Notes under the pieces: model-generated
What the model was told of the DNA's origin: nothing
Database searches by the model: none
Seen by the model: only the letters and a program-made list of their open reading frames with translations
Translations under genes and position numbers: made by a program
Origin: Roseisalinus antarcticus
Lineage (GTDB): Bacteria; Pseudomonadota; Alphaproteobacteria; Rhodobacterales; Rhodobacteraceae
Assembly: GCF_900172355.1 (NCBI RefSeq)
Contig: NZ_FWFZ01000021.1
Coordinates: forward strand, 1-64,000
Length of the DNA: 64,000 nt
Reading direction: 5' to 3'
Shown: positions 15,493 to 52,244 of the stretch, in pieces
How positions within the stretch are numbered: position 1 is the stretch's first letter
Layout of the letters: every line of letters starts with the position of its first letter

Positions 15493-16367
15493 GCCCCGCC
15501 GCCACCGCGCCCCCCGACCTGACCCTGGCGCTGACGGTCCATGCCGAGAGCCTGGTCGCCGGCCCCACCCTGGCCAGCGCCGAGGCCGCGCTGGCGCGGC
15601 TCGAGGCGGCGGGCTACCGGGTGGAGCGGCTGATCGGGCTCGACGACCCGACCCCCGAGGCCCGCGCCTTCATGACCCAGCCCGCGCTGGCCGCCTGGGA
15701 GGTCCGCGAAATGGCCTTCCGCGACCAGGGCCGGACCCGCAACGCGCTGGCCGCCCAGGCCCGGGGGCGCTGGCTCGCGTTCCTGGATGCCGACGACCTG
15801 TTCTCGGAAAACTGGCTGATCGAGGCGGTACAGAGCCTTGAGGCGGCCGGCCCGGGCGCCCGCGTCATCCTGCACCCCGAGGTGGTCTGGGAGTTCGACG
15901 GCACCGCGATGAGCCATGCCAACATCGCCCAGGACAACCCGCTTTTCACCCCCCATCACCTGGGCATCCAGAATTACTACGACGCGCTGTGCCTGGCCCC
16001 GCGCGAGGCCTGGACCGAGGTGCCCTTCGCGGATCGCGACATCGCGGGCGGCTTTGCCTACGAGGATTGGCAATGGGCGGTGGAGACCATGGCCGCGGGC
16101 TGGCACCACGGGGTGGTGCGCGACACGCTGATCTTCAAGCGCCGCAGGGATTCCTCGCAGACCGGCGAGGCCCGAAGCCGCCGGGTGTCGATCCGCGGCC
16201 TTGCCGCGCTGGCGATCGACCGGATCGGCAGGCTCGGCCGGCCCGGGGCGGGCGGGACCGACACTGATACCGACACTGGCACTGGCAGGGCGGAAACTGG
16301 CAAGGCGGAAACTGGCAAGACAGACACTGGCGAGAGCGGCAGGACCGGGGGAGGGGCTGCGCCATGA
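15489..16367 (+). CDS. GT2-like glycosyltransferase with low-complexity tail
   Basis: A 292-residue GT-A protein. TLALTVHAESLVAGPTL opens the nucleotide-binding fold, and LAFLDADDLFSENW near residues 96-109 supplies the DxD-type metal site. YEDWQWAVETM and IFKRRRDSS follow towards the C-terminus. Residues 255-290 form a low-complexity TDTDTGTG/ETGK tail encoded by near-hexameric DNA repeats. The ATG overlaps the preceding stop (ATGA), implying translational coupling. It is the paralogue of the gene at 19652-20398, and each follows a YPDV-repeat glycosyltransferase, so the two genes form a duplicated cassette. Confidence 0.83.
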   Translation: MSPAATAPPDLTLALTVHAESLVAGPTLASAEAALARLEAAGYRVERLIGLDDPTPEARAFMTQPALAAWEVREMAFRDQGRTRNALAAQARGRWLAFLDADDLFSENWLIEAVQSLEAAGPGARVILHPEVVWEFDGTAMSHANIAQDNPLFTPHHLGIQNYYDALCLAPREAWTEVPFADRDIAGGFAYEDWQWAVETMAAGWHHGVVRDTLIFKRRRDSSQTGEARSRRVSIRGLAALAIDRIGRLGRPGAGGTDTDTDTGTGRAETGKAETGKTDTGESGRTGGGAAP

Positions 16368-17068
16368 CCACCCGCTTCGTGCTGTTCTCGACGGCGCGGT
16401 CGGGGTCCTCGTGGCTGGTGACGGCGTTGCGCAGCCACCCCGAGATCCTGTGCCATGGCGAGGCGCTGGCGCCGGGGCTGGTGCCGCGCCACCTGCAGGG
16501 GGCGGCCCGCGCGGTGCTGACGCCCGAGATGTGCAAGGCCGACCCGCTGGGCTTTGCCCGCCGGCTGCTGGCGATGGACGAGGGCCACGGCGCGGTGGGC
16601 TTCAAGGTCTTCGCGACGCAAGGCCCCGCCGCCCATGCCGCGCTGCTGTCCGACGAGAGCCTGCACAAGATCGTCCTGCGGCGCGAGAACGCGCTGGCGG
16701 CCTGGTCCTCGCTGCTGATCGCGCGCCAGACCGGGCGCTGGAACACCCGCAAGGCCGGCATCGGCGCGGGCACCCGGACCCGGTTCGTGCGCGCCGAGTT
16801 CGACCATTACCGCACCCGCCGCGACGCCTATTTCGACCGGATCGACCGCCAGCTGCGCGGGCCGCGGCTGGATCTGACCTATACGGGTGACATCGTGACG
16901 AAAAACGCGGCCCCCGTTCTGGACTTTCTCGGTGTGGACAGGGCATTCGATACATCGACGGCCATGGCCCGGATTCTCGGGCCCTCGATCCTCGACCGGT
17001 TCGAGAACGCGGCCGATGCCGCGGCCTGTCTGGACGAGATCGGCCGGCCCGACTGGGCACGGGAATGA
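16364..17068 (+). CDS. Sulfotransferase-like protein (Stf0/NodH-like)
   Basis: A 234-residue protein with the PAPS 5'-phosphosulfate loop FSTARSGSSWL at residues 8-18, matching the T.RSGSSWL motif of Stf0 and NodH-type carbohydrate sulfotransferases. IVLRRENALAAWSSLLIARQTGRW near residue 103 fits the 3'-phosphate-binding region. A short C-terminal helical part follows. It would transfer sulfate from PAPS to a sugar hydroxyl in the cytoplasm. Its ATG overlaps the stop of the previous glycosyltransferase gene and its own stop overlaps the next ATG, so it belongs to a coupled chain. Confidence 0.84.
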   Translation: MTTRFVLFSTARSGSSWLVTALRSHPEILCHGEALAPGLVPRHLQGAARAVLTPEMCKADPLGFARRLLAMDEGHGAVGFKVFATQGPAAHAALLSDESLHKIVLRRENALAAWSSLLIARQTGRWNTRKAGIGAGTRTRFVRAEFDHYRTRRDAYFDRIDRQLRGPRLDLTYTGDIVTKNAAPVLDFLGVDRAFDTSTAMARILGPSILDRFENAADAAACLDEIGRPDWARE

Positions 17069-17577
17069 CGAGAGGGGCAGGGGCCATGGCAGCCAAGGCG
17101 CAGGACACCGACACCGACGCTGACACCGGCGAGGCGATGCAGGACGACACCGCCGAGGACAGCTCTTCCGTCGCCGACCGCGAGCGCGAGCTGGGCGAGC
17201 GGCTGGCGCTGTCGAACCGCCGGCTGAAACGCGCCACCGAAGAGATCGCGGCCCTGACCCGCCATGTGCAGATCCTCGAAGGGGCGCTGCGCAAGAAGGA
17301 CCGGGCCTTCGGCCAGGCGCTCCTGTTCGACAACGTCGCCATTCGGCTGCCCTATATCGGGCGCTGGCCCTGGGTCGCGCGCCGGGCGATGCGCTACCGC
17401 GCCAGGCGGATCGTGCGCGCCGGGCTCTTCGATCCCAAGTGGTATGTCCAGGAATATCCCGATATCGCGGAGACCGGCGTCGATCCCGCCCGCCATTACC
17501 TGCGGGCCGGCTGGCGCGAGGGCCGCCTGCCGCGCGCCGACATGAAGGTCAATCCTCTGACGCGAGGCCAGCGATGA
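17065..17577 (+). CDS. Small coiled-coil protein with a single YPDV-type repeat
   Basis: A 170-residue protein of unknown function. An acidic start (TDTDADTGEAMQDD) is followed by a predicted coiled coil near residues 35-75 (ERELGERLALSNRRLKRATEE). A basic stretch and one copy of the FDPKWYVQEYPDIAETG..P.RHYLRAGWREGRLP repeat at about 115-152 complete it. The same repeat is found inside three large glycosyltransferases in this window, one of them encoded by the next, overlapping gene. A scaffold that tethers glycosyltransferases through the repeat is a reasonable hypothesis, but nothing in the sequence proves it. The ATG overlaps the preceding stop. Confidence 0.72.
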   Translation: MTRGAGAMAAKAQDTDTDADTGEAMQDDTAEDSSSVADRERELGERLALSNRRLKRATEEIAALTRHVQILEGALRKKDRAFGQALLFDNVAIRLPYIGRWPWVARRAMRYRARRIVRAGLFDPKWYVQEYPDIAETGVDPARHYLRAGWREGRLPRADMKVNPLTRGQR

Positions 17578-19655
17578 AACAGCCAAGCCGCGGGGAGGTG
17601 GACGAGGTCCATGCCTCCGACCTGTTCGACGCCGAGTGGTATCTTGCCGAATATCCCGATGTCGCGCTGCTGAAGATGAACCCGATCGTGCATTACCTGC
17701 GCTTCGGCGGCCCGCTGGGCCGGCGGCCGGCGGAATGGTTCGACCCCGACGCCTATCGCGCCGAATACCCCGAGGTGGACGAGGAGGGCGTCGACCCCTT
17801 CCTGCACTACATCCGCATCAACCGCCCCTCGGACGCCACCGGGACGGGAACGGGGACCGGCGCCGCGCGGCCGGACCGGGACGGCGACGGGCCGCCCCTG
17901 CCCGAGCCCGCCGGCGGCCCGCTGCTGTCCGCGCCCCTGCCCGAGGGCACGGTGCCCCATTACGGCGCCAAGATGCAGCGGCTGGCCGGGCTGGCCCGCG
18001 CCGCCGCCCCGCCCAGCCCCGAGCCCGACGATTACGAGACGGTGATGGAGGGGTTCGACCACCTGTTCTACCTCACCCGCTACCATGACATGGCCGCGGT
18101 CGCGCACCGCTCGAACATGGTCCGCCACTACCTGCGGGCCGGGGCGAAGGAGGGGCGCGATCCCTCGCCGCATTTCTCGACCAAGGGGTATCTCGCGCGC
18201 TATCCCGATCAGCGCCACAGCCCCGAGAACCCCTTTGCCCACTGGCTGCGCCGGGGCCGGGCCGAGGGCCAGATCGCGACCCCGCTGACCGAGTTCGACA
18301 AGGTCAGCCAGATCCTGGGTCACGAGTCCCCCGCCGCCACCCAGGAGATGCTGATCGCCCGCAGGCGCGACCTGCGCGAGCGGTTCGAGACCGGCAAGCT
18401 GGGCGAGATGGTGCGCAAGGCCACCGCCCACGAGCCGCTGGTCGGCCAGGTCTGGCCGCAGGCGCTGCAGCCCAACATCCAGCCCCTGGTCCGGCAGGAC
18501 CGGGTCAGGATGCTGGCCGCCCTGGGCGAGCTGCACGAGATGGCCGGCGCCCGCACAGCCCGCGCCGTGGTCGCCGTCAACGCCCCGCGCTGGGGCGGAG
18601 GGCGCCGGATGGAGGGCCACATCACCCATGCCCTGGCCGAGATGCTGGGGGTCGAGGAGGTGATCCTCATGGTCACCGACAAGGGCGGCGAGATGGCCGA
18701 TTCCAAGGCGCCGCCCGGGGTCCGCTACGTGGATTTCGCCAGCGCCACCGCGTCCCTGTCCAAGCCCAACCGCGAACGGATGCTGTTCGAGTTCCTGCGC
18801 GGCCTGGCGCCCGAGGCGGTGTTCAACATCAACTCGCTGACGATCTGGACGCTGATGACGAATTACCCCGGCCCGGTCTCGGCGAGCCTGCCGATCGTGG
18901 GCTGTTTCTTCTGCAACGACCAGAACCGCTTCGGCCATTGGGGCGGCTACCCGGCCTCGCAGTTCTACCGGCATTTCGACAAGATGCGCGCGGTCTGTCC
19001 CGACAGCCATTACCTGGCCGATCAGCTGGCCACGCAATTCGCGGTTCCGCCGGAACAGAGACACAAGATCGCCGTGCTGGAAGGGCCGGTGGACCCCAGC
19101 CTGCCGGTGGCCTCCGCCCCCGCGCCGGGCCGGGGCCGGCGGCCGCAGTTCTTCTGGGCCAGCCGGCTCGACGACCAGAAGCGGCTCGACGTGGTCTATG
19201 CCATCGCCCGCGCCATGCCCGATGTCGACATCCGGATGTGGGGCGCCCCCGTCGCCAGCCAGATCGACCCGCGGGTCGACAAGCCCGGCAACGTGATCCT
19301 CGAAGGGGTCTACGACAGCTTCGCCGCGCTGCCGCTGGGCAAGGCCGACGGCTGGCTCTACACCTCGGAATGGGACGGGGTGCCGTCGATCCTGCTCGAG
19401 GTGGCGATGACCGGGATCCCGATGGTGGGCAGCCTGGTGGGCGGCTGCGGCGAGGTCCTGCGCGAGGGCCTGTCCTGGCCGATCGCCGATTTCGCGAACC
19501 CCGACGCCTATGTCGACGCCATGCGCGCCCTGCTGGCCGACCCCGAGGGCGCCCGCGCCCGGGCGCTGCAGCTGCGCGAGGCGCTGGTGGCCGAGCGCAC
19601 GCCAGAGGCCTATGCCGCCACGCTGGCGCAATTCTTCGAAGGGACCGCCCCATGA
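17574..19655 (+). CDS. Modular glycosyltransferase: YPDV-type repeats plus GT4-like C-terminal domain
   Basis: A 693-residue protein. Repeat modules lie at about residues 15-85 (FDAEWYLAEYPDVALL, FDPDAYRAEYPEVDEEG) and again around 160-235 (FDHLFYLTRYHDMAAV, and a PHFSTKGYLARYPD segment). The C-terminal GT-B part has FFWASRLDDQKRLDVVY near 525 and EWDGVPSILLEVAMTG near 600. It is clearly paralogous to the 13513-15492 product in domain order and motifs. I chose the ATG at 17574 because it overlaps the upstream stop as ATGA, although the frame runs further upstream. The next gene overlaps in the same way. Confidence 0.85.
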   Translation: MKQPSRGEVDEVHASDLFDAEWYLAEYPDVALLKMNPIVHYLRFGGPLGRRPAEWFDPDAYRAEYPEVDEEGVDPFLHYIRINRPSDATGTGTGTGAARPDRDGDGPPLPEPAGGPLLSAPLPEGTVPHYGAKMQRLAGLARAAAPPSPEPDDYETVMEGFDHLFYLTRYHDMAAVAHRSNMVRHYLRAGAKEGRDPSPHFSTKGYLARYPDQRHSPENPFAHWLRRGRAEGQIATPLTEFDKVSQILGHESPAATQEMLIARRRDLRERFETGKLGEMVRKATAHEPLVGQVWPQALQPNIQPLVRQDRVRMLAALGELHEMAGARTARAVVAVNAPRWGGGRRMEGHITHALAEMLGVEEVILMVTDKGGEMADSKAPPGVRYVDFASATASLSKPNRERMLFEFLRGLAPEAVFNINSLTIWTLMTNYPGPVSASLPIVGCFFCNDQNRFGHWGGYPASQFYRHFDKMRAVCPDSHYLADQLATQFAVPPEQRHKIAVLEGPVDPSLPVASAPAPGRGRRPQFFWASRLDDQKRLDVVYAIARAMPDVDIRMWGAPVASQIDPRVDKPGNVILEGVYDSFAALPLGKADGWLYTSEWDGVPSILLEVAMTGIPMVGSLVGGCGEVLREGLSWPIADFANPDAYVDAMRALLADPEGARARALQLREALVAERTPEAYAATLAQFFEGTAP

Positions 19656-20464: not shown

Positions 20465-21589
20465 ATGGCAAAGACCACCGCTCTGGTGCATTTCAATCAC
20501 AAGATGGTCGACGGCAAGGTCGCCTGGAACGATCTCGGCACCACCGATTTCCGTCCCAATTACGGCGACATGCTGGTCTGTGCCGCGCTGCTGCAGCACC
20601 TCGGCCCGGCGGCGGCCGAGGCGGGCGAGACCCGGATGATGTTCGGCCAGCCGGCCAGGCCCGCCGACGTGGCGCTGGTGCGCGGCTCGACCTATGTCCA
20701 CAAGAACTTCGATTACCGCAAGGCGATGAAGACGCTCGAGGGCTTCGACTGCCCGATCGCGATCATCGGGCTGGGTGCGCAGTCGCAGCAGAACGACCCG
20801 ACCTTTCTGGATGACAATGCCGATGCGCGCGATTTCGTCGCCTGCCTGAACGAGCGGTCGAAAAGCATCTCGGTCCGGGGCGCCTTCACCGCCGAGGTGC
20901 TGACCCGGCTGGGGGCGCAGAACATCCGCGTCACCGGCTGCCCGTCGCTGTTCTATTCCTGCGCCGTGCCCAGCGTGACCCTGCCGGGATTGCTCGACAC
21001 CCCCGAGCGGCGGCTGGGCGTGTCGCTGCACACCGGGCTGCGCGGCTCGATCTATTGCCGCGACCCGGCCAAGGCGCGCGAGAAGCACGTGCAGGCGCTG
21101 GTCCACGCGATCGAGGGCTCCTCCAAGGCGGGGTTCTTCGAACAGGGCGTCAAGCTGGAGTTCGACCTCGCCGACCACCGGCTGCCGTTCGAGGCGCGGA
21201 TGGCGGCCGCCCGCGAGGTGCTGGCCCATATCGGCGGCGAGGGTGCGCTGAGCCCCGAACAGGTCATCGCCCATACCGTCAGCGTGCGCAGCATCGACGA
21301 CTGGCTGTCGAAGGTGCGCGACGTGGACGCCATGGTGGGCTTTCGGTTTCACGGCAACATGGTCGGCCTGCTGCAGGGTCTGCCCTGCTATTACTGGACC
21401 TACGATTCACGGCTCAAGGAGTTCTGCGAGCTCTACAAGCTGCCCTACAGCGACGTGGCCGAGGAGTGGGTCGACCCGGTGCGGGCCATGCTCGACCACG
21501 ATTGGGACGCCGCCAACGCCGCCTTCGCCACCTGCCATGCCGAGCTCAAGGCCTGCTATGCCGAGAACGGCATCGAGACGGTGCTCTGA
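20465..21589 (+). CDS. Polysaccharide pyruvyl transferase family protein
   Basis: A 374-residue protein of the polysaccharide pyruvyl transferase family (GT-B-like fold). Typical features are the early FRPNYGDMLVCAALLQHL segment, IIGLGAQSQ near residue 100, SVRGAFTAEVLTRLGAQNIRVTGCPSL near 140-165 and the late MVGFRFHGNMVGLLQGLP motif. Such enzymes add a pyruvate ketal from phosphoenolpyruvate to a sugar and give the polymer negative charge; some members have other ketal or transferase roles. It lies between the glycosyltransferase chain and sqdB with clear spacing and a GGGGAGA ribosome-binding site 7 bases before the ATG. Confidence 0.87.
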   Translation: MAKTTALVHFNHKMVDGKVAWNDLGTTDFRPNYGDMLVCAALLQHLGPAAAEAGETRMMFGQPARPADVALVRGSTYVHKNFDYRKAMKTLEGFDCPIAIIGLGAQSQQNDPTFLDDNADARDFVACLNERSKSISVRGAFTAEVLTRLGAQNIRVTGCPSLFYSCAVPSVTLPGLLDTPERRLGVSLHTGLRGSIYCRDPAKAREKHVQALVHAIEGSSKAGFFEQGVKLEFDLADHRLPFEARMAAAREVLAHIGGEGALSPEQVIAHTVSVRSIDDWLSKVRDVDAMVGFRFHGNMVGLLQGLPCYYWTYDSRLKEFCELYKLPYSDVAEEWVDPVRAMLDHDWDAANAAFATCHAELKACYAENGIETVL

Positions 21590-21719
21590 CAGGCGCGGGG
21601 GGCGGGCCGTGGCCCGGACGCCATGGCTCCGCGGGGCCATGGTTCGCAGGGTTTCCTTCCCCCCGGAACGGCGATAAAGGACGCGCAATTATTTGGGTCT
21701 CGAGAAGGGTTCTGGGAGC

Positions 21720-22877
21720 ATGAAGGTCATCATTCTGGGCGGGGACGGCTTCTGCGGCTGGCCGAACGCCCTGTATCTTTCCAACCGCGGTCACGACGTC
21801 ATCATCGTCGACAACCTCAGCCGTCGCCAGATCGACCTGGAGCTCGAGGTCGACAGCCTGACCCCGATCAAGCCCATCGGCGAGCGCCTGCGCGTCTGGA
21901 AAGAGCTGACCGGCAACGAGATCAAGTTCCACAACTTCACCGTGGGCGAGCATTACCACCGCCTTCTGACCCTGATCCAGGACGAGAAGCCGGACGCGAT
22001 CATCCACTTCGCCGAACAGCGCGCCGCGCCCTATTCGATGAAATCCTCGAGCCACAAGCGCTACACCGTCTCCAACAACCTCAACGCCACCAACGACGTG
22101 CTGGCCGCGATCGTGGAATCGGGCCAGGACATCCACCTTGTCCACCTCGGGACCATGGGCGTCTACGGCTACGGCACCGCCGGCATGAAGATCCCCGAGG
22201 GCTACCTCAAGGTGCGCATCGACACCCCCGCCGGCGAGGCCGAGACCGAGATCCTCTATCCCACCAACCCCGGCTCGATCTACCACATGACGAAAAGCCA
22301 GGATCAGCTGTTCTTCCACTTCTACAACAAGAACGACGGGGTGAAGATCACCGACCTGCACCAGGGCATCGTCTGGGGCACCCAGACCGACGAGACCAAG
22401 CAGGACGAGCGGCTGATCAACCGCTTCGACTATGACGGCGATTATGGCACCGTGCTCAACCGCTTCATCATGCAGGCCGCGGTCGAGTACCCGATGACCG
22501 TGCATGGCACCGGCGGCCAGACCCGCGCCTTCATCCACATCCAGGACACCTGCCGCTGCATCGAGCTGGCGCTGGAGAACCCGCCGCAATCGGGCGAGCG
22601 CGTCAACATCCTCAACCAGATGACCGAGACCCACCGGGTCCGCGATCTGGCGCAGATGCTGCACGACGCCATGGGGGCCGAGATCGCCTATCTCGACAAC
22701 CCGCGCAACGAGGCGGCCGAGAACGAGCTGCACGTGGCCAACGACCGCTTTCTGGGGATGGGCCTCGAGCCGATCAAGCTGGAAAGCGGCGTGATGGACG
22801 AAGTCCGCGAGATCGCGCAGAAATACGCCGCGCGCTGCGACACCTCCAAGATCCCTTGCGTCTCGCTCTGGCGCTGA
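21720..22877 (+). CDS. sqdB: UDP-sulfoquinovose synthase
   Basis: A 385-residue extended SDR enzyme that converts UDP-glucose plus sulfite to UDP-sulfoquinovose. The NAD turn GGDGFCGW is at residues 7-14, VDNLSRR near 33-39, [14 protein letters not shown] near 98-111, GTMGVYG near 143-149 and the catalytic YHMTK pair near 183-187; all are SQD1/SqdB hallmarks. The start is the ATG at 21720 with GGGAG just upstream. Its usual role is the sulfolipid SQDG, but here it sits in a polysaccharide locus and a sulfite-producing APS reductase is encoded 2 kb downstream. Incorporation of sulfoquinovose into the polymer is therefore possible. Confidence 0.95.
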
Positions 22878-30013: not shown

Positions 30014-30204
30014 GCGCGGTCTCCGGGCTGGGCTGTCTGGCTGACGATCGCGGGACGGGCTAGCCCCGGGGGGCGGGCTTGTCAACGAAACGCGGGGCGC
30101 GGAAACCCGCCGTTCGGCTTGCCGCCCGGGCCGAACTGGGCAACAAGCGATCAAGCCGGCATGGTGTTGTTTCAGCCGGGGCCGACAGGGTACCAGCGGG
30201 GCAT

Positions 30205-31131: not shown

Positions 31132-31174
31132 AGATTTCCGTAGAACCTATGCCATGCGCTTGGGGGAGTATGCT

Positions 31175-40433: not shown

Positions 40434-40614
40434 GAAGCCCGTTCTGCCCCGTACAGATGATCGGACCGCCATTCGGAGCGCGATCGGCAAGGCCATGCAG
40501 GCCCCAAGATCTCCCGAAGACGGCATGTATCCGAGAGTGTTCGTTTGTCCGACATTTTCCCAGCCCCTTCAAGGCCGGCCCCCGCAGGGCCGGATCCGCC
40601 GCGCGCCGCCGCCG

Positions 40615-43944: not shown

Positions 43945-44605
43945 TCGGAACATACCTCCGATCATCGACGCCGCTACCTCTAGAGGCTAATCGGCTTCAT
44001 TTAAAGTGAGTGTCTGCCCAAGGCCCGCCATCGCGCCGCGCGCGGACGGCCGGGCCACGCCGCGGCGCAGCCATATTTACCATAATGTTGCTTACACGGA
44101 GAATTTTCGCCCCGCCCGCACCCGCCGGGCCGGGCCACGGGGTCCGCGATTCGAGGTCGCCCCGGCCCCGTGGTTCGCAAGCTGCCCCCAAGTCGGGCGC
44201 GGGCGCGGGAATGACGCCTACAAACCAGCCGAACCCCGCCGACGCTCAGTTTCAGCGTTGATTTCCGACGAAAAACAGGCGAAGCGAAAATTGACGACGC
44301 CCGGTGTGGGGGCGCCGGTTAACGAGTCCATGTGTTGCGACAATTTGGACACACGACCTCTGGCTACCGGACAGGTCCCTTCATTGCGGGGACCGGACAA
44401 CGGACAGGTCCCATCGTTACGGGGACCGGACAACGGACAGGTCCCTTCATTGCAGGGACCGGACAACGGACAGGTCCCTTCGTTACGGGGACCGGACAAG
44501 GGAGAGGCCCCCAGTATCATGGGCGGCCGCGCCTCCGTCTCGATCTATCCGGGCCGTCCTCCGATTTGCCATAGGCTGTGAGTTGCATGCAGGAGTCCGA
44601 TCCGG
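43945..44605. promoter_or_regulatory. Repeat-rich regulatory region between divergent rml operon and ExoA-like operon
   Basis: This 661-bp gap is the largest gene-free stretch in the window. It must hold promoters for rmlC (minus) and the operon starting at 44606 (plus). A local AT-rich segment (about 44071-44108, around CATAATGTTGCTTAC) is conspicuous in otherwise GC-rich DNA and is the best candidate promoter or regulator site. A second relatively AT-rich part covers 44240-44350. The 33-bp tandem repeats at 44369-44500 follow. Open frames across it are products of the repeat periodicity and show no family features. Confidence 0.55.
44369..44500. repeat. Four 33-bp tandem repeats with internal dyads
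   Basis: Four units start at 44369, 44402, 44435 and 44468. Each contains GGTCCC and GGGACC separated by nine bases, so each can form a short hairpin. Variable bases alternate: units 1 and 3 carry ATTGC in the loop, units 2 and 4 carry GTTAC, giving a 66-bp higher-order period. The units are contiguous with no unique spacers, so this is not a CRISPR array. Confidence 0.92.
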
Positions 44606-45811
44606 ATGCCCCAGAACACACATGCCAGGAACGCGCCGGCGCCGGGGGCCGGCGCCGGAATGTTTCGCCCGCGAGACATGCGCACGGACACCGTTCCGGG
44701 CACCGTGCAGCCCGCTGACCGGACCGGGACCACGACCGACGCAAGCCGCGACACCGGCCGGCCCGACCCAAGGCTCGACGCGGAAATCGTGATCGCCATG
44801 CCCGCCCTGAACGAGGGCCCCCGCGCCGAGGCCGCGATCCGCTCGCTGCTGGCCGATCCCGCCGCCGACCGCTGTGCCTTCGTGCTGGTCGACGGCGGCA
44901 GCACCGACGGCACCGCCGAGGTGACCCGCGCCGCCTTCGGCGACCGGGTCGTGATCCTGGCCAATCCCGGCCGGCTGCAGGCCCATGCGGTCAACCTGGT
45001 GGCCCGCGAGGCGGCCCGGACCGCCTCTGCCCGCTACCTGCTGCGGGCGGATCTGCACGCGGTCTATCCGGCGCATTTCATCTCGACCCTGGTCGAGACG
45101 GCCGAGCGCACCGGGGCCACCAGCGTCGTCGTGCCCATGCGCACCCGCGGCGGCAGCCCGGTCCAGGACGCCGCCGCCCTGGCCTTCGGCAGCTGGTTCG
45201 GCACCGGCGGCGCGCCGCACCGCATGGCCTCGGGCAGCGGCTGGGTCGCCCATGGCCACCACGCCCTGCTGGACCTCGATGCCTTCCTGCGGGCCGGCGG
45301 CTACGACACCGGGTTCGTGGCCAACGAGGATGCCGAGTTCGACGTCCGGCTGCAAAAGCAGGGCGGGCGGATCTACATGGAGGCCGCGGCGGCGATCGAC
45401 TACATCCCCCGCGCCAGCCTGACCGGGACCTTCCGGCAATATTGCCGGAACGGGCGCTACCGGATCTGGACCGCGGCCAAGCATCGCCGGATGCTGGGGG
45501 CCCGGCAGCTTCTGCCGCTGGCGATCCTGCCGGTGCTGGGGACCGCGGTCCTTGCCGGGCTCTGGCTGCCCTGGCTCTGGCTGGTCCCGCTGGGCTATGG
45601 CGCGTTACTGCTGGGCCTGGCCTTCGCGGCGCGCGGGGCGGCGGTGAAACCCTGGACCCCGCGGATGATCGTGCTGGCCGCCGCCATCGCCGGCATGAGC
45701 CAGATCGGCTTCAGCGCCGGCAACCTCTGCGGGCTGGCCGACCTCTTCGTTCTGAACCCGGCCCGGCGCCGGGCGCTGCGGGGCCGCCGGCGCCCGGACC
45801 CGAGGATATAG
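44606..45811 (+). CDS. GT2 glycosyltransferase, ExoA-like, with C-terminal membrane segments
   Basis: A 401-residue protein. After a 55-residue variable N-terminus, IVIAMPALNEGPRAEAAI and VLVDGGSTDGTAEVTR begin the GT2 domain, YLLRADLHAVYPAHFI near 145-160 holds the acidic donor-metal motif, and FVANEDAEFDVRLQKQGG near 235-252 is the acceptor-side block. Three to four hydrophobic segments occupy residues 295-385. This organisation matches ExoA-type enzymes of succinoglycan synthesis, which extend lipid-linked oligosaccharides at the inner membrane. It heads an operon running to 50671. The start codon may be one of several ATGs in the variable leader. Confidence 0.85.
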   Translation: MPQNTHARNAPAPGAGAGMFRPRDMRTDTVPGTVQPADRTGTTTDASRDTGRPDPRLDAEIVIAMPALNEGPRAEAAIRSLLADPAADRCAFVLVDGGSTDGTAEVTRAAFGDRVVILANPGRLQAHAVNLVAREAARTASARYLLRADLHAVYPAHFISTLVETAERTGATSVVVPMRTRGGSPVQDAAALAFGSWFGTGGAPHRMASGSGWVAHGHHALLDLDAFLRAGGYDTGFVANEDAEFDVRLQKQGGRIYMEAAAAIDYIPRASLTGTFRQYCRNGRYRIWTAAKHRRMLGARQLLPLAILPVLGTAVLAGLWLPWLWLVPLGYGALLLGLAFAARGAAVKPWTPRMIVLAAAIAGMSQIGFSAGNLCGLADLFVLNPARRRALRGRRRPDPRI

Positions 45812-45815
45812 GCCG

Positions 45816-46688
45816 GTGACATCGAACCTGTTCCTGATCGCGGCCCCCCGCTCCGGGTCGACCCAGCTGTCGGCCTGGCTCGGCTCTCATCCCGACATCG
45901 GCATGCCGCCGATCAAGGAGCCGAACTTCTTTTCCCAGCACGAGTTTCCGCCCGCCTTCGTCGCCGAGACCCGGCTCAACGACGTGATCCCCGAACGCTA
46001 TGTCGCCAGCCGATCGAAGGCCGAGATGCAATTCGCGATCTTCCGCGAGCCGGCGCAGTACGACTACCTTTTCGAGGACCTCAAGACCCGCTGGCGGCTG
46101 GATGCCTCGACCACCTACCTGCAATGCCCCGAGGCGCCCGCGGCCATCGCCGCCCATGCGCCGGACGCCCGGGTGATCCTGCTGACCCGCGACCCGGTGG
46201 CCCGCGCCCTGTCCCATTACCGGCTGGCCGCGCGGATCGGGCAGACCACCCGCAGCCTGCGCGAGGAGATCGACGCCGAGCTGCGCGGCGAAACGCCCCT
46301 GCCCGGGCGCTTCCTGCTGCGCCCCAGCCGCTATGACGCGGCCCTCGCGCGCTACCGGCAGACCTTCGACGACAGCCGCCGGCTGGAGCTGACCTTCGAG
46401 GAGATGGTGGCCGACATCGAGGGCACCCTGGCCCGGATCGCGGCGTTCCTCGGGATCCCCGCCGCGGGCTTCGACCAAGGGCTCGACCGGCAGAATTCCG
46501 GCGATGCCCCGCGGTTCCGGCGGCTGAACGTGTTCCTGCACCGCTCGGGGGCCAAGACCGTCCTGCGCCGGCTGCTGCCCCCGAGCCTCAAGCGCCGGCT
46601 GAAGGCGGTCTATTTCAAGCCCAACACGGACAGCGTCGACGACGGCGACACGGCCTACCTGCGCGAGCTGCTGGAGGTGCGGGCATGA
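45816..46688 (+). CDS. Sulfotransferase
   Basis: A 290-residue classic sulfotransferase-family protein. FLIAAPRSGSTQLSAWL near residues 6-22 is the phosphosulfate loop, and KEPNFFSQHEF follows. VILLTRDPVARALSHYRLAA near 122-141 is the textbook 3'-phosphate-binding motif (R..Y...R.....S.Y), and LELTFEEMVAD lies near 190. It starts with GTG at 45816, four bases after the previous stop, and its stop overlaps the next ATG. Motif quality makes a PAPS-dependent activity more secure here than for most of the other candidates in the window. Confidence 0.9.
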   Translation: MTSNLFLIAAPRSGSTQLSAWLGSHPDIGMPPIKEPNFFSQHEFPPAFVAETRLNDVIPERYVASRSKAEMQFAIFREPAQYDYLFEDLKTRWRLDASTTYLQCPEAPAAIAAHAPDARVILLTRDPVARALSHYRLAARIGQTTRSLREEIDAELRGETPLPGRFLLRPSRYDAALARYRQTFDDSRRLELTFEEMVADIEGTLARIAAFLGIPAAGFDQGLDRQNSGDAPRFRRLNVFLHRSGAKTVLRRLLPPSLKRRLKAVYFKPNTDSVDDGDTAYLRELLEVRA

Positions 46689-47971
46689 CCGCCGCCGCCG
46701 CGCGGGGCCCCGGGGACCGTCCCATGCGGGTGCTGCTGGCCCATGCCTATCTCGCGGCCAACGGCGGCGCCGAGACCGTCGCCCGCGCCTTCGAGACAGC
46801 CCTTCGGGCCCGCGGCGTGGCGGTGGGCGTGGTCGATGTGGCGGGCCACGTCACCCCCGAGGGCAAGCACAGCCCCCTGCCCCTCGCCGGCCTGGTGCCG
46901 CGCCGCATGGGGCTGGTGAACTGGGCCGTCACCTGCCGCCACGTCCCCGCCCTGGCGCGGGATTACGACGCCGTCCTCTACATGTTCGGCGAGGGACCGC
47001 GGCTGGACAGGCCGACGCTGGTGTTCCGCCATGCCCCCGTCGTGTTCGCCCAGAGCCGCCCCCTGGTCGAGGCCCTGGCCGGGCAGAGCGGCGCGCCCTT
47101 CGCGATCCGCAAGCTCTATGGCCGGCTCGGCGCCGCGATCGCCCGTCTCGGCCGGCCCGATCCCGACGCCTTCACCGTCGCCAATTCGCGCTGGACCGCC
47201 GGGCACGTGGAGACCGGGACCGGCATCACGGTGGACCGGATCCTCTATCCGGCGATCGACCTCGACCCCGCGACCGCCGCCCCGATGACCGGAGAGGGGG
47301 CCAGCGCGCGGACGCCCGACCGGCTGGTCATGCTCGGGCGGATCGTGCCGAACAAGCGCATCCACGAGGTGATCGCGCTGGTGGCGGGCCTGCAGGCGAA
47401 GCGCCCGGGGCTGCGGCTGGACGTCATCGGCCGGGCCAGCCGGAAATACGCCCGCGACCTGATCGCCCGCCATGCCGGGGACGCGGTCGTCCGCTTTCAC
47501 CCCGATGCGGACGACGCCGCGCGGGGCGCGATCCTCGCCGCGACCCCGGTCGGGGTCCATGCCTACCGGGCCGAGCATTTCGGCATCGCCGTCGCCGAGA
47601 TGATCCATGCCGGGGTGCTGCCGCTGGTCTATGACAACGGCGGGGTCTGCGAGCTGGTGCCCTTCCCCGACCAGCGGTTCGACGACGATGCCAGCCTCTG
47701 GGCGCGGATCGAGGCCTGGCTCTCGGCCGACGGCGCCGTGCGCGCCCGGCGCATCGAGAGCCTGCGGCAGGCGCCGGCCTACCTGGCCGCCTGCGAGTTC
47801 GCGGACCGCCTGGAGGGGATCCTGGGCGAGTTCCTGGCCTATTGCGACCGCTGGCACGCGGCCGGGCCCGCGGCGGCCAAGCGGGCGCTCTCGGCCGTGC
47901 CCGCCGCCCCGACGGCGCCCGCCGTCCTGCCCGCCTCCGCGCCCGCACCCGCGCCCGCCCACAAGGAGTGA
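46685..47971 (+). CDS. Glycosyltransferase family 4
   Basis: A 428-residue GT-B enzyme. RVLLAHAYLAANGGAETVARAFE near residues 15-37 is the N-terminal glycine-rich start. VANSRWTAGHVE lies near 162, LVMLGRIVPNKRIHEVI near 217-233 opens the donor domain, and VHAYRAEHFGIAVAEMIHAGVLPLVYDNGG near 285-314 contains the E-x7-E donor-sugar motif. A Pro/Ala-rich tail (last 35 residues) is low complexity. The ATG overlaps the sulfotransferase stop and the flippase GTG overlaps its own stop. Confidence 0.91.
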   Translation: MTAAAARGPGDRPMRVLLAHAYLAANGGAETVARAFETALRARGVAVGVVDVAGHVTPEGKHSPLPLAGLVPRRMGLVNWAVTCRHVPALARDYDAVLYMFGEGPRLDRPTLVFRHAPVVFAQSRPLVEALAGQSGAPFAIRKLYGRLGAAIARLGRPDPDAFTVANSRWTAGHVETGTGITVDRILYPAIDLDPATAAPMTGEGASARTPDRLVMLGRIVPNKRIHEVIALVAGLQAKRPGLRLDVIGRASRKYARDLIARHAGDAVVRFHPDADDAARGAILAATPVGVHAYRAEHFGIAVAEMIHAGVLPLVYDNGGVCELVPFPDQRFDDDASLWARIEAWLSADGAVRARRIESLRQAPAYLAACEFADRLEGILGEFLAYCDRWHAAGPAAAKRALSAVPAAPTAPAVLPASAPAPAPAHKE

Positions 47972-49278
47972 CCCAGATCAACAGCCTTGTCCGCAGAGTC
48001 CTGAAGGAATCCTCGCTCGCCCTGGTGACCAAGCTGATCGGCGCGCCGGTCAACTTCATCATGGTGGTGGCGCTGGCCCGCGCGATGACCTTCGAAACCT
48101 ATGGCGAGTTCGTCTTCGCCTTCAGCATCGTCATGATCCTGGGACAGGCCGCGACGGCGGGCCAGCCGCAACTGATGCTGCGGCTGCTGCCCGGGTTCGA
48201 GGAGGCCGGAGCGGAGGCGCAATGGCGCGCCGCCCTGCGCCACGGGCTGCGCCTGGTGCTGGCCGCCGGCCTGCTGGCCACCGTGGCGATGATCGCCGGT
48301 GCGCTGGCGCTTGGCGCGGGGGGCTACATGATCCTGGCCGCGCCGCTCTGCCTGCTGTTCGCCTTCGCCCAGTTCCAGGCGGCGATCCTGCGCACCCGGG
48401 GCAAGGTCGTCTGGGCGATCGGGCCGCGCGACATCCTCTGGCGGCTGACGCTGATCGCGCTCTGCGGGATCGTCCTGCTGTTCTCGCTGCCGCCACTGCC
48501 GAGCTGGGGGGTCTTCGCCTTCGGCGTGGTCTCGCTGGCGCTTCTGCTGCTGTGGCAATCCCGCGCCGACCGGACCACACGCTACCGCAGCGCGCTGGCC
48601 GGGCCGGTGGCCGGGGCCGAGGGCGCCTGGCGCAACCTGTCGACGCGCTACTGGATCACCGCGCTGGTGATCTTCGGCACGCCGAACCTGGCGGTGGTCA
48701 TCGTGGGCACGGTGCTCGACGTGACCGAATCCGGGCCGTTCTTCGCGGCGTTGCGGACGGCGCAGCTGATGCAGCTGATCCTCATCGCCAGCAACATCGC
48801 CGCGACGCCGCTGATCTCGCGCTACCATGCCGCCGGGGACACGGCGGCGGTGCAGTCGATCTCGGCGGTCGTGGCCAGCCTGGCGGGGGCGGCCGCGGTG
48901 GTCGGCTTCGTGATCCTGCTCTTCCTGGCCGGCCCGATCCTGTCGCTGTTCGGCGAGGGGTTCGAGGCGGCCCGGGCGTCCCTGCTGATCCTGGCGGTGG
49001 GCTTCGCGATCAGCGCGCTCAACGGGGCCAACGGGCCGCTGCTGCAGATGACCGGCCATGAGAAACCTTTCAACCGGATCATCGTGGGCGCCAACGGGCT
49101 GGGACTTGTGTGCCTGGTGCCGGCGGTCTGGCTGGGCGGCGCGGTGGGCGGTGCGCTGGCGGTCAGCGGCGCGATGATCCTGTGGAACGTCCTGGCCTGG
49201 CGGGCCTGCCGCGAGTTGACCGGGATCGACCCCAGCATCCTGGGGGCGCTGCGCCACATCCGGGCGCAGCGGTCATGA
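47968..49278 (+). CDS. Polysaccharide flippase (Wzx-like, MOP superfamily)
   Basis: A 436-residue membrane protein with about twelve hydrophobic segments. LVTKLIGAPVNFIMVVALARAMTFETYGEF near the start is the typical Wzx/RfbX opening, and the repeat-like hydrophobic pairs with charged loops continue to the end (FALGLVCLVPAVWLGG region near 370-390). It would flip lipid-linked repeat units to the periplasm. The start is a GTG (47968) in GTGA overlap with the preceding stop; the AAGGAG upstream is very close, so the start is not fully certain. It is followed by a Wzy-like polymerase. Confidence 0.86.
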   Translation: MTQINSLVRRVLKESSLALVTKLIGAPVNFIMVVALARAMTFETYGEFVFAFSIVMILGQAATAGQPQLMLRLLPGFEEAGAEAQWRAALRHGLRLVLAAGLLATVAMIAGALALGAGGYMILAAPLCLLFAFAQFQAAILRTRGKVVWAIGPRDILWRLTLIALCGIVLLFSLPPLPSWGVFAFGVVSLALLLLWQSRADRTTRYRSALAGPVAGAEGAWRNLSTRYWITALVIFGTPNLAVVIVGTVLDVTESGPFFAALRTAQLMQLILIASNIAATPLISRYHAAGDTAAVQSISAVVASLAGAAAVVGFVILLFLAGPILSLFGEGFEAARASLLILAVGFAISALNGANGPLLQMTGHEKPFNRIIVGANGLGLVCLVPAVWLGGAVGGALAVSGAMILWNVLAWRACRELTGIDPSILGALRHIRAQRS

Positions 49279-49399
49279 GCGCACCGCTCTGCCCGGCCCG
49301 CCGCGCCCCCCGGAGAGACCCCGCCTGCCGGAGAGACCGTCGCCGCGCCGGCGGTTTCCTGATACCCTGGGCGGTGAGCCTGGCCATGATCCCGATGCG

Positions 49400-50671
49400 A
49401 TGCCACCGATGACCCATACGATGACGGCCGCGCACCCCCGGGCCCGGACCGCCCGGGATGTGCTGAAGGTGTTCGCCTCGGTCCTGGCCTTCCTGCTCTG
49501 GGTGCCCGCCATCGGCCTGCCGGCCGGCCCGATCTGGCTGCAGCCCGTGGATATCCTGGTGATCCTGGCCTATCCGCTGATCGTCACCTTCCTGCCGCAG
49601 ATGCCGGTGCGGACCGGGCTGATGATCCTGTTCTCCATGGGCGCCTCGATGATCTCGCTGCTGGTGGGCGGCGAGGTGATGATCCTGATCTACTACCTGG
49701 GCTTCGTGATGCCGTTCATGGCGGTGATCGGCGTCATCGCCCGGGCAGAGGACACCCGCCGCGCCTTCATCCGCGGCTTTGTCCTGGGCGGGGCCTGTTC
49801 GGCGCTGTTCTTCCTGCTGCAATTCGCGGTCGGCGCCGAGACCCTCGACTTCCGCACCAACCGGACCTTCGGCCTCGTACCGCAATACGGCCGGGGCTTC
49901 GCGCTGTTTCCCGAGGTCAGCACCTTCACCACCCACACGATCTACCTGCTGGCGGTGCTGATCGTGCTGTGGCGCGGCGGCCGGGCCTACGCCCGGGTCT
50001 TCAGCTTCGGCCGGGTGGTTCCGCTGATCCTGATCGCCCTGGCCTGCCTGATCCTCAGCCGGTCCTCCTCGGTGGTGCTGATCGCCCCGATCATGGTGAT
50101 CGTGGCCTATTTCAAGGGCCGCCGGCTGGGCCGCAACGGGCTGATCGGCGCGGCCTTGCTGGTCATCCTCGGCTCGGCCGTCCTGAACGTCTTCGTCACC
50201 GAGTTCTATGCCGAGCGGTTCGGCGAGGGCGGCCTGCGCTCGATGTACCTGCGCGGCATCTCCATCGTGTCGGGCCTGTCGGTGCTGACCTCGGGCGAGA
50301 CGCTGGGGGTCGGGGTCGGCAACAACCACATGATCACCGAGCGCGCCTGGGATGTCGCCCGCCAGATCGGCTTCGTGCTGATCCTGGTGCCCGAGGGGAT
50401 CAACAGCTTCGTCGTCAGCCGGATCTTCGAGGAGGGCTGGCCCGCGGCGCTGATGTTCCTGCTCGGCGCGGTCTTCGTGGTCCGGGCGATCGGACAGACA
50501 CAGCCCACCCCCTATGCCCGCGCCTTCGCGGTGCTGGCGGTCGGCTCGATGCTGGTGTCGCTGATGGTGACGGGCTACCGCGGGATCTACATGAACTGGT
50601 TCTGGCTGGCGGCCGCCCCGGCCCTGATCCAGGGCGGGGGCCGGCGCGATCAGGCGCCGCGCAGCGGATAG
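49400..50671 (+). CDS. Polysaccharide polymerase (Wzy/O-antigen ligase-like)
   Basis: A 423-residue membrane protein with about ten hydrophobic segments and a large loop. The loop around residues 150-180 contains LDFRTNRTFGLVPQYGRGFALFPEVST, and RGISIVSGLSVLTSGETLGVGVGNNH lies near 290-315, both typical of the O-antigen ligase/Wzy superfamily where basic residues in periplasmic loops act in polymerisation. Polymerases diverge strongly, so this call depends partly on its position directly after a flippase in a glycosyltransferase operon. Its last 22 bp overlap the convergent sulfotransferase gene. Confidence 0.8.
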   Translation: MPPMTHTMTAAHPRARTARDVLKVFASVLAFLLWVPAIGLPAGPIWLQPVDILVILAYPLIVTFLPQMPVRTGLMILFSMGASMISLLVGGEVMILIYYLGFVMPFMAVIGVIARAEDTRRAFIRGFVLGGACSALFFLLQFAVGAETLDFRTNRTFGLVPQYGRGFALFPEVSTFTTHTIYLLAVLIVLWRGGRAYARVFSFGRVVPLILIALACLILSRSSSVVLIAPIMVIVAYFKGRRLGRNGLIGAALLVILGSAVLNVFVTEFYAERFGEGGLRSMYLRGISIVSGLSVLTSGETLGVGVGNNHMITERAWDVARQIGFVLILVPEGINSFVVSRIFEEGWPAALMFLLGAVFVVRAIGQTQPTPYARAFAVLAVGSMLVSLMVTGYRGIYMNWFWLAAAPALIQGGGRRDQAPRSG

Positions 50672-51294
50672 CCGAAGCGCGCGAAATCCTCGGCATATTC
50701 GGCCTCGACATAGTCGAGATCGGCGCGCGGGAGATCCGCGACCGAGAGCTTCTTGTCGGCCGAGATGTTCTTTCTGGGCAGCTCCGCCGGGCGGCCCAGC
50801 GTCCGCTCGAACGCTGTGGCCAGCCCGGTGCGCATGTCCTCGAACGTCACGATCTGGTCCACCAGCAATACGCCCGTGGCCGGATCGACCACGAACCGGG
50901 ATTGCGGGGCGATGTGGCGGTAGAGGTCGTTATGCTCGTCGCGCGGAATGGACGACAGGAAATCCCGCAGGGTCCCCGTCGCCCCGGACCGGAAATTATA
51001 GGTCGAGACCGCCCGGTGATAGGGGTCGCGCACGATCGCGAACTTGTAGAAGGCGCTGAATTCCTCGGGCGTCACATACCCCAGAGAGACATATTCGTCC
51101 CCGTAAAGATGGGCGAGCCGTTCGGGCCCTTTGGAGCGGTCCCGGTTTTCCTTCAGCAACAGGCGCCGCCGGTCATTCCAGGGAAAGAGGCTGCGCCATT
51201 TCAGGCCGAGATCCTCGAGAAACAGGGTTTCGACACTCTGGCCGGCCGTTTTCGGAATATGGACGAAAATCGTCGAATGATGGCGGGATATCAT
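50650..51294 (-). CDS. Sulfotransferase (Sulfotransfer_2 type)
   Basis: A 214-residue protein. TIFVHIPKTAGQSVETLFL near residues 8-26 is the phosphosulfate loop with the HIPKTAG motif of carbohydrate sulfotransferases. YKFAIVRDPYHRAVSTYNF near 92-110 is the 3'-phosphate-binding motif. The C-terminal DLDYVEAEYAEDFARFGY matches the family end. The start is the ATG at 51294, with GGAGG 7-8 bases upstream; the longer frame begins without a signal. It is convergent with the Wzy-like gene (22-bp overlap) and divergent from another sulfotransferase at 51585, making a back-to-back pair. Confidence 0.89.
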   Translation of the reverse strand: MISRHHSTIFVHIPKTAGQSVETLFLEDLGLKWRSLFPWNDRRRLLLKENRDRSKGPERLAHLYGDEYVSLGYVTPEEFSAFYKFAIVRDPYHRAVSTYNFRSGATGTLRDFLSSIPRDEHNDLYRHIAPQSRFVVDPATGVLLVDQIVTFEDMRTGLATAFERTLGRPAELPRKNISADKKLSVADLPRADLDYVEAEYAEDFARFGYPLRGA

Positions 51295-51584
51295 TCCAGG
51301 GCCTCCAGGGTCGAAAATCCGATGCCCGATCACCTGTCTCTTGTCAACCTTGGCCGGGGGGCTGTCCCGGCCGCGCCGCCTTATTCGGCATCGCCGCGGG
51401 AGATCTGGACAAAATGCACAAAAAACATCGCCTTGTCGCCTGCGGATCCGCCCTCGGGCGGGGGCGGCCGGGGGCGCGAACAGCGATGCTTGACCCCGCA
51501 ATGGCAGTCGGGAATACCGGTGCCTGACCGTGACCGCGCCCCGGGGGCGCAGGGCGCGGCAGCCCTGGTTCAAGGTGCCGAAAA

Positions 51585-52244
51585 ATGATTGTCAGTCACA
51601 GCCGCAAGATCATTTTCTTCTCGTTTCCCAAGACCGGATCGGAATCCGTGCGGGACATGCTGAGCGAAATAAACGAGGAGCCAATTCACCATTTCAAGGA
51701 CGCGACACCGCAATCTCCGTATTACTCGCACATGTCCCCGGCCGAGGCCCAGGCGGAATTCGAGAAACGCGGTCTGGATTATTCCGGGTATTTCCGCTTT
51801 ACGGTCACCCGCAACCCCTATCCCAGGCTCGTGTCGATATACGAGATGGTGATGGCGGTGGACGGGGTGGAAAAGCTCAAGCGCCGGATCGGCCTGCGGC
51901 AGCAGGGCTTCGCCGACTGGCTGGCCGCGACCGAACCCTCGGGGTCGGGCGGCGGCGGGCGGCGGCATCAGCGCTGGCGCAGGTTCGGGACCTGGTCCAC
52001 CGCGGCCTGGATCGCGGGCCGCGACGGCGAGGTCGCCGTCGACCGGGTGCTGCGGCTCGAATACCTGGCGGACGAGCTTCCCGGCGTGCTGCGGGACCTG
52101 TCGCTGCCCCGGCCCGAGACGCTGACCCACAAGAACCGCCGGGTCACCAGGGACTGGCGGTCCTATTACGACGACCGGTCCCGCGCCCTGGTCGCCGCGC
52201 GCTATGGCGACGACCTCGCGACCTACGGCTACGGCTTCGACTGA
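51585..52244 (+). CDS. Sulfotransferase-family protein
   Basis: A 219-residue protein with IIFFSFPKTGSESVRDML near residues 9-26 as phosphosulfate loop and FRFTVTRNPYPRLVSIYEMV near 70-88 as 3'-phosphate motif. The latter half is variable, with a glycine-arginine-rich loop near 122-130, and ends in YYDDRSRALVAARYGDDLATYGYGF, the usual terminal helix of Sulfotransfer_2-type proteins. The region before the gene is more AT-rich than average. It is divergent from the gene at 51294 across a 290-bp gap that likely carries promoters for both. Confidence 0.86.
   Translation: MIVSHSRKIIFFSFPKTGSESVRDMLSEINEEPIHHFKDATPQSPYYSHMSPAEAQAEFEKRGLDYSGYFRFTVTRNPYPRLVSIYEMVMAVDGVEKLKRRIGLRQQGFADWLAATEPSGSGGGGRRHQRWRRFGTWSTAAWIAGRDGEVAVDRVLRLEYLADELPGVLRDLSLPRPETLTHKNRRVTRDWRSYYDDRSRALVAARYGDDLATYGYGFD

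Follow-up and report, generated by a model that had tools for sequence, protein, structure and literature searches.

The 64,000 nucleotides analysed here, called the window below, are positions 1 to 64,000 of the Roseisalinus antarcticus contig NZ_FWFZ01000021.1 (assembly GCF_900172355.1), a plasmid contig of 67,683 bases (~67.7 kb). Between 16364 and 52244, eight intact and two broken homologues of sulfotransferases that depend on 3'-phosphoadenosine 5'-phosphosulfate (PAPS) could be located and read among genes for polysaccharide synthesis, all ten at the positions given in the original prediction, which had been made from the DNA letters. They were labelled S1 (16364), S2 (27483), S3 (33850), S4 (34689), S5 (35793), S6 (36937, broken), S7 (45816), S8 (50650), S9 (51585) and S10 (22930, broken). 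Third-position GC ranged from 0.80 to 0.94 in all eight intact genes.

In the profile check that had been proposed, with the Pfam sulfotransferase and Stf0 families, five of the eight intact genes (S2, S3, S7, S8 and S9) exceeded the cut-offs. S2 (27483..28172, minus strand) belongs to the Sulfotransfer_4 class (PF17784, 46.1 bits, cut-off 22.8) and S3 (33850..34692, plus strand) to the Stf0 class (PF09037, 58.6 bits, cut-off 22), the match of S3 to the NCBIfam trehalose 2-sulfotransferase (57.7 bits) lying far under its cut-off of 400. S7 (45816..46688, plus strand) is a Sulfotransfer_3 gene (PF13469, 81.9 bits, cut-off 27), while S8 (50650..51294, minus strand) and S9 (51585..52244, plus strand) are Sulfotransfer_2 genes (PF03567, 44.2 and 36.5 bits, cut-off 22). 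The open reading frame (ORF) of S8 extends to 51573, and the predicted start is probably at 51294 rather than there. For S1 (16364..17068, plus strand), the Pfam Sulfotransfer_3 match was sub-threshold (14.5 bits, cut-off 27); its protein matched PDB entry 9vki, 'LPS sulfotransferase NodH' (LPS, lipopolysaccharide), with E=3.1e-32 over residues 3-233 of 234. S4 (34689..35615, plus strand) and S5 (35793..36797, plus strand) are of a HIGxxKTG type and found no match in Pfam or NCBIfam. S6 (36937..37660, minus strand) is a single Sulfotransfer_2 gene that a frame change has split into ORFs 37136-37660 and 36937-37173 (PF03567, 69.7 and 24.1 bits). S10 (22915..~24028, plus strand), read in six frames as a broken HIGxxKTG-type gene, has its start in one frame and its remainder in another, with a stop at 23189-23191; the remainder joins a profile seeded with S5. 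The several motif classes of the original prediction were thus recovered as several families, although the gene at 16364 is NodH-like and the Stf0 gene is the one at 33850.

The R(x7)S motif for the 3'-phosphate was found at the expected position in seven of the eight intact genes, the exception being S3. A P-loop regular expression matched five of the eight, and the loops of S4, S8 and S9 (at 34689, 50650 and 51585) were seen by eye. From the 5' loop together with the R...S motif, PAPS-dependent sulfotransferase function is predicted for these genes, and each has either a family profile over the cut-off (5/8) or a solved relative, found for S1 by sequence in the PDB and for S4 and S5 as follows.

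S4 is a relative of S5 (BLASTP E=1.4e-12). Of 17 S4-related loci found, 12 (25-41% identity) were aligned with S4 to give 13 sequences; L139 was left out by choice, L146 for unreadable bases, and L147, L153 and L154 also stand outside the alignment. The segment HIGMNKTG near the start, R119 and S127 are invariant in it, the last two at a spacing that we take to be that of the sulfotransferase 3'-phosphate motif. A profile built from this alignment matched the sulfotransferase 3rnl in the PDB with E=4.9e-5, the two other matches having E values of 0.2 and 0.4. With the AlphaFold2 model of S4 (mean pLDDT 88.4), all six Foldseek matches at E<=0.001 were sulfotransferases, among them bacterial 3rnl and human tyrosylprotein and heparan-sulfate N-sulfotransferases. 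TM-scores to the query were 0.33-0.38 and the root-mean-square deviations 6-16 A, so the kinship of S4 to these folds is distant. For S5 a weaker model was obtained (pLDDT 65.5); its seven Foldseek matches at E<=0.001 were again all sulfotransferases, with low TM-scores. Nucleotide kinases and zeta-type toxins appeared in both searches at poorer E-values only (from 1.6e-3 for S4 and 3.2e-3 for S5). S4 is therefore supported by its profile match to the PDB and by its fold, S5 by its kinship to S4 and the weaker fold model. Two side observations concern these families. Locus L139 holds a 44% relative of S4 in a metagenome-assembled genome titled Klebsiella pneumoniae, a label that appears doubtful for that gene, and relatives of S5 on Phaeobacter plasmids of 65-70 kb, the size of biofilm plasmids, are named 'hypothetical protein' only, among the matches listed.

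The sulfotransferase genes are clustered with glycosyltransferase and export genes, as in a locus of the synechan type. Coupling to glycosyltransferases, as had been claimed, was seen in 4-bp overlaps at four genes. S1 overlaps the GT2 gene upstream of it, S2 the DUF4422-GT8 gene and S3 the GT2-GT4 gene, S3 and S4 also overlapping each other by the same length; at S7 the overlap is with the glycosyltransferase gene that follows, the preceding one ending 4 bp before S7. By Pfam, the glycosyltransferase genes GT4a, GT2b and GT4b lie around S1 (13477..19655, plus strand), DUF4422-GT8 (minus), GT2 (plus) and GT2-GT4 (plus) at 28169..33853, and a WsaF-like/GT2 glycosyltransferase at 37692..40526 (minus). 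The dTDP-rhamnose operon rmlA, rmlD, rmlB, rmlC (40615..43965, minus) was also recognised by Pfam. It is followed by GT2e, S7, GT4c and genes for a flippase-like and a polymerase-like protein (44606..50671, plus), assigned by Pfam, hydropathy and cassette conservation: the flippase-like protein has 11 hydrophobic segments and a sub-threshold MatE match, the polymerase-like protein 12 hydrophobic segments and no profile match. An ABC-type capsule exporter is encoded at 2742..5842 by genes for an ATPase (minus), a BexC/CtrB/KpsE-like protein (minus) and an ABC-2 permease (plus), found by Pfam; its match to TIGR01010 (200.9 bits) is under the cut-off of 437.5. A Wza/KpsD-type outer-membrane polysaccharide export protein (54395..55525, plus; PF02563, PF22461) completes the export genes.

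A gene of the UDP-sulfoquinovose synthase family (21693..22877, plus strand) and a gene for the (P)APS (adenosine 5'-phosphosulfate or its 3'-phospho form) reductase CysH, a predicted sulfite producer (25024..25800, plus; PF01507, 140.8 bits; NF002537, 274.5 bits, cut-off 154; CC and CxxC motifs), lie ~2.1 kb apart, cysH downstream. The first protein matched Arabidopsis SQD1 in the PDB with E=5e-92, the next protein family following at 2e-11. Since it reaches 339.6 bits with NCBIfam NF041015, below the equivalog cut-off of 575, the gene is called SQD1-type and not the equivalog. The protein and two plasmid relatives carry GxxGxxG, TMG and YxxxK, the signature of SQD1 and Agl3 ([ST]MG...Yx3K in the available text of PMC8987622, GxxGxxG in that of PMC4388408), of which the [ST]MG part is missing from three other enzymes of the window, RmlB, the WbpM-like protein and another epimerase. 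Enzymes of this type join sulfite to UDP-glucose, according to the part of PMC4388408 that was available. A second PF01507 gene is present in the genome on contig C109, so the plasmid cysH is an extra copy, and the idea that it is the sole copy was discarded; read without a profile search, the neighbours of the C109 gene appear to be sulfite-reductase and uroporphyrin-methyltransferase genes. The one APS-kinase domain of the host genome lies within a 637-aa open frame, likely a fused ATP sulfurylase-APS kinase, and the host can therefore probably make PAPS.

Among 72,556 plasmid records, a relative of the SQD1-like protein was found in 22 and of CysH in 29 at E<=1e-30, and both in 2. These two, the plasmids of Pelagovum and of strain M382, are RepA-I plasmids and hold the best plasmid relatives of both genes (SQD1-like, 90% and 88% identity; CysH, 78% and 83%). 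The genes are adjacent in Pelagovum, a Sulfotransfer_3 frame lies between them in M382, and the broken S10 and a glycosyltransferase gene lie between them here. PF01507 was found on three of 21 RepA-I plasmids (W01, W02 and W16), the W02 copy without an SQD1-like gene. Against the pairing, only two of the plasmid records hold both genes, and the genome G096 has a 50% SQD1-like relative and no CysH match in its 39-kb stretch. What is chiefly new in this analysis is that the SQD1-like gene and cysH are linked, three plasmids being few and a lipid being another possible destination of the sugar. Neither this pair nor the replicon type formed part of the original prediction.

The replicon is carried by genes for a ParB-like protein (minus), a ParA-like protein (minus) and a RepA-I initiator (plus) at 7003..11099. 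The RepA-I (RPA) initiator matched PF10134 with 329.8 bits and the ParA-like protein PF13614 with 100.9 bits; the ParB-like protein has a weak match of 16.9 bits, under the cut-off. In blastn the initiator gene matched 306 plasmid records, one of them annotated repA-I, the largest groups by name being Phaeobacter (66) and Sphingobium (28), and all 20 records of that list for which taxonomy lines were fetched belong to the Rhodobacterales. The ends of the contig duplicate 870 bases within a repetitive RTX gene, which fits a circular molecule. The RepA-I initiator and the rmlCBDA operon, which is complete and accompanied by polysaccharide export genes, place the plasmid with the rhamnose-operon 'biofilm plasmids' of roseobacters. 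Judged from its sequence, the contig is the entire circular ~67-kb plasmid of this type. The founding paper on these plasmids is said to be that of Michael et al. 2016 in ISME J. The type is also described in the accessible parts of PMC9426580 and PMC10090131.

Sulfotransferase loci were counted on 21 other whole RepA-I plasmids with profiles seeded from the window and with PF03567 and PF13469 from Pfam. The present plasmid has 10 loci (8 intact, 2 broken) or 1.48 per 10 kb, the highest density of the 22, the window seeding favouring it; the others have 0-11 loci (median 3, at least one on 19 of 21), with next densities of 1.08 and 1.06. The top counts elsewhere are 11 loci on Marinibacterium pLA6_007 and 9 in Leisingera aquaemixtae, a few short places on these two and on W05 and W18 resembling fragments. 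Twenty of the 21 plasmids were chosen among the initiator matches listed (40 of 306), mostly from different organisms and after sulfotransferase relatives had been seen, and a Tateyamaria plasmid was chosen through its S3 match. As seeds, S1, S2, S6, S9 and S10 found only themselves, S3 one other plasmid, and S4 and S5 each 49 ORFs. Pfam also recovered S2, S3 and S6-S9; S4, S5 and S10 enter the count through the S4/S5 profiles and S1 through its own seed. Searches of the 21 plasmids with PF09037 and PF17784 added one over-cut-off locus, on W05, outside the locus table. The repertoire is not unique, given the counts of pLA6_007 and Leisingera aquaemixtae. 'Unusually large' holds as a matter of degree, in relation to the median of 3.

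Nine sibling plasmids (1.69 Mb), chosen by neighbouring accession, with strain names matching those of the RepA-I plasmids, served as a control; all nine were counted, one being of 793 kb. A replicon type other than RepA-I is typed or annotated in seven of them, and the remaining two, W24 and W28, gave no repA-I match at E<=1e-10. In the RepA-I set (1.89 Mb), PF03567 and PF13469 were each over the cut-off on 12 of 21 plasmids and either family on 16, against 1/9 (PF03567), 0/9 (PF13469) and 1/9 (either) among the siblings (either family, Fisher p=0.0016; 15/20 against 1/8, p=0.004, when the Tateyamaria plasmid and its sibling are removed). On the four siblings (302 kb) to which the window-seeded profiles were applied, a single locus came up, identical with the PF03567 one. 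Because RepA-I plasmids exceed their siblings in this way, sulfotransferases are a recurrent cargo of the plasmid type, and the present plasmid has the highest density in a graded series. Of 150 genomes of the family, 133 hold one or more PF03567 genes, which leaves little meaning to one copy; the genome that carries this plasmid, with 8 PF03567 matches, four of them in the window (two being the pieces of S6), is second in the 150-genome table, whose top is 9. The locus is thus no isolated case, and the original prediction is to that extent not supported.

Around S7, a longer unit could be recognised. Relatives of S7 (47-57% identity) were found in seven other genomes (295 searched, own included), the copy in G178 having one in-frame stop. 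The order GT2e-S7-GT4c-polymerase is retained in all seven, and in six of them a relative of S9 (46-54%) lies directly before GT2e, a position from which S9 of the present plasmid differs. The predicted two-sulfotransferase cassette S9-GT2e-S7-GT4c-polymerase, with S7 as its core and S9 as its second sulfotransferase, is conserved in six other genera. It lies beside repA-I, parA and parB in one genome and near parA and parB in another; in an eighth, which is of the same genus, the only S7 relative is a 35% one, without the cassette. In two Rhodobacterales genomes, relatives of S4 have an ABC exporter and an rml operon as neighbours; contig L151 has a 27% S4 relative between rmlB and rmlD, with parA also nearby. 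The RepA-I plasmids of Marinibacterium and Tateyamaria carry annotated sulfotransferases inside their rml operons. This is not the rule, as among the 16 compared plasmids that have three or more rml genes the arrangement is absent from 11, the rml genes of three of the 16 being too dispersed to say, and the present plasmid has none inside its operon. The slot beside the DUF4422 glycosyltransferase gene holds S2 (27483-28172) here and a HIGxxKTG gene (17905-18894) in Pelagovum NZ_CP065916; the same slot with a different sulfotransferase family suggests cassette exchange. Adjoining S2, a 183-aa ORF (26923-27474) had no Pfam match at E<=0.01 and reads as what we take to be a REP-associated (Y1-type) transposase, which could bear on cassette movement.

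Other features of the plasmid are a polysaccharide pyruvyl transferase gene (20465..21589, plus; PF04230, 66.6 bits) and, at 55750..60693 by Pfam, genes for a WbpM/FlaA1-like nucleotide-sugar dehydratase (minus), a CAP-RTX protein (plus) and UDP-galactopyranose mutase (minus); the best NCBIfam match in this group was PseB, under the cut-off. The CAP-domain RTX protein (58074-59396) and a further RTX protein (60662-62665) adjoin the mutase gene glf, and in Pelagovum a CAP protein, glf and a calcium-binding protein stand in a row. Another RTX calcium-binding gene, at 1-1128 and the contig end, has a ~432-base repeat and crosses the circle junction, with an uncertain repeat number. The 581-aa protein at 52341-54086 had no Pfam or NCBIfam match; a 46% partial relative is present in the same-genus genome G060. 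Scans for tRNAs and with Rfam gave no matches.

These results are best explained by a rhamnose-containing surface polysaccharide that is multiply O-sulfated, and possibly also sulfonated, by pathways of the RepA-I plasmid, which we regard as the probable reading, with a fair margin of doubt. The main cargo of the plasmid would be one or two surface-polysaccharide pathways. The sulfotransferases, made together with their partner glycosyltransferases, would put sulfate esters on the growing repeat units in the cytoplasm, each enzyme serving one acceptor, with PAPS supplied through the APS-kinase domain encoded elsewhere in the genome. The extra CysH may provide sulfite, from which the SQD1-type enzyme would build a sulfonated sugar nucleotide. 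The resulting capsule or exopolysaccharide would be rich in sulfur, strongly anionic and suited to life on surfaces. We infer that the gene products act on one polymer with a number of sulfated positions and a sulfonated sugar, and that it would have a role in attachment. As a bolder and only tentative proposal, two sulfur chemistries might meet in one surface polysaccharide, sulfate esters set by the sulfotransferases and a sulfoquinovose-like sugar made by the SQD1-type enzyme with sulfite from a dedicated CysH, the whole being a transferable sulfur-coat module of RepA-I plasmids.

Several points weigh against the favoured explanation. Some of the genes may be decaying, as two of ten are broken, and two polymers are possible, since the exporter is of the ABC type while the flippase and polymerase are Wzx/Wzy-like. 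Relatives among the plasmid records are few (S1 5, S3 6, S7 5, S8 2, and none for S2 at E<=1e-5), so a shared role may not hold for each gene. The SQD1-like protein falls short of its equivalog cut-off, and of the 22 plasmids that hold one of its relatives, 20 gave no match to CysH at the threshold applied. As the chief alternative, sulfotransferase-glycosyltransferase cassettes may turn over: pairs would enter a mosaic plasmid by exchange and decay there, with few of them acting on the polymer at once, and the high count would be a snapshot rather than the sign of a polymer sulfated by design at eight positions. The two broken genes, the different families in the DUF4422 slot, the range from 0 to 11 loci among the 21 RepA-I plasmids, the shifted position of S9 relative to six relatives and the in-frame stop in the S7 relative of G178 all agree with it. 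It is nevertheless rather unlikely in view of the eight intact genes with their third-position GC of 0.80-0.94 and of S7 and S9, which keep 46-57% identity within a gene order kept across genera.

SQD1 and SqdB enzymes are best known from sulfolipid synthesis and CysH is a general assimilation enzyme; together with the 20 plasmids lacking a CysH relative, this speaks for the pair serving a membrane sulfolipid or general sulfur assimilation, unrelated to the polymer. We consider this doubtful, though a shade less so than turnover, because the second PAPS_reduct gene makes the plasmid copy an extra one and both genes lie amid glycosyltransferase genes, and two further RepA-I plasmids have the two of them as well. 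The acceptors of some or even most of the enzymes could instead be molecules such as lipid A or LPS core, glycolipids or RTX surface proteins. This might be argued from the likeness of S1 to an 'LPS sulfotransferase NodH', the trehalose 2-sulfotransferase in the family of S3, the tyrosylprotein sulfotransferases that the S4 and S5 models matched and the RTX proteins encoded by the plasmid; the overlaps with glycosyltransferase genes and the linkage to rml and export genes make it improbable. Hardly any weight is left for kinases or other P-loop proteins, the alternative named with the original prediction: nucleotide kinases and zeta-type toxins ranked under the sulfotransferases, which made up all Foldseek matches at E<=0.001 (6/6 and 7/7), R(x7)S is present in 7/8 genes, and profiles over the cut-off refute this identity for five of the eight.

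In the sea, ion binding, gel properties and attachment depend on sulfated polysaccharides, whose bacterial producers are regarded as few. In the plasmids compared here, which belong to a common marine group, as many as eleven sulfotransferase loci were counted on one molecule, many relatives being named 'hypothetical protein' among the matches listed. If the polymers are sulfated, RepA-I plasmids would be a large, testable source both of new carbohydrate sulfotransferases and of polysaccharides that are sulfated and perhaps sulfonated.

Two of the enzymes resemble what we take to be well-known systems, S1 the rhizobial NodH and S3 the mycobacterial Stf0 sulfotransferases, names that also appear in their matches; S1 and S3 differ from these in sitting in a polysaccharide locus alongside other sulfotransferase classes. 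With Arabidopsis SQD1 and Sulfolobus Agl3 the SQD1-type enzyme shares the GxxGxxG, TMG and YxxxK signature, and with SQD1 full-length similarity; it differs in its score under the NCBIfam equivalog cut-off and in its place in a polysaccharide locus near cysH. The synechan xss cluster of Synechocystis, as far as it is set out in the available text of PMC8205485, is likewise a plasmid-borne exopolysaccharide cluster with distinct sulfotransferase subfamilies and rhamnose in its product; it belongs to another phylum and has two sulfotransferases and demonstrated sulfate, against eight intact sulfotransferase genes and a predicted product here. In the same text its authors state that, to their knowledge, no sulfotransferase genes like these two had been found in exopolysaccharide clusters of other bacteria, and that such polymers had been reported from cyanobacteria alone. 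This seems too strong, since Pontiella is called a sulfated-polymer case in the portion of PMC7356697 at hand and an Alteromonas exopolysaccharide is called sulfated in a title cited in PMC4189415. One sulfotransferase gene common to two roseobacter genomes is mentioned in the accessible text of PMC3230580, without a polysaccharide, and such genes are reported, in a source available in part, from other alphaproteobacterial orders of a mat. No work linking sulfotransferases with roseobacter or RepA-I plasmids was found among the papers that the literature searches listed. The replicon type, the sulfotransferase families and the idea of a sulfated exopolysaccharide are already known, the last from what PMC8205485 and PMC7356697 offer in their available parts.

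The closest named backbone is that of the Pelagovum pacificum plasmid p_SM1903_1 (parA 89%, repA 81%), and both plasmids carry wza, wbpM, glf, cysH, SQD1-like and DUF4422 genes; unlike the present plasmid, p_SM1903_1 has one sulfotransferase locus, and rmlC, rmlD and rmlA are unmatched there. With the RepA-I rhamnose biofilm plasmids in general, the present plasmid has in common the RepA-I initiator, parAB, rmlCBDA, the exporter and the glycosyltransferases. What sets it apart from them is the top sulfotransferase density among the 22 compared and the pair of SQD1-like gene and cysH, found on just two others at 78% identity or more.

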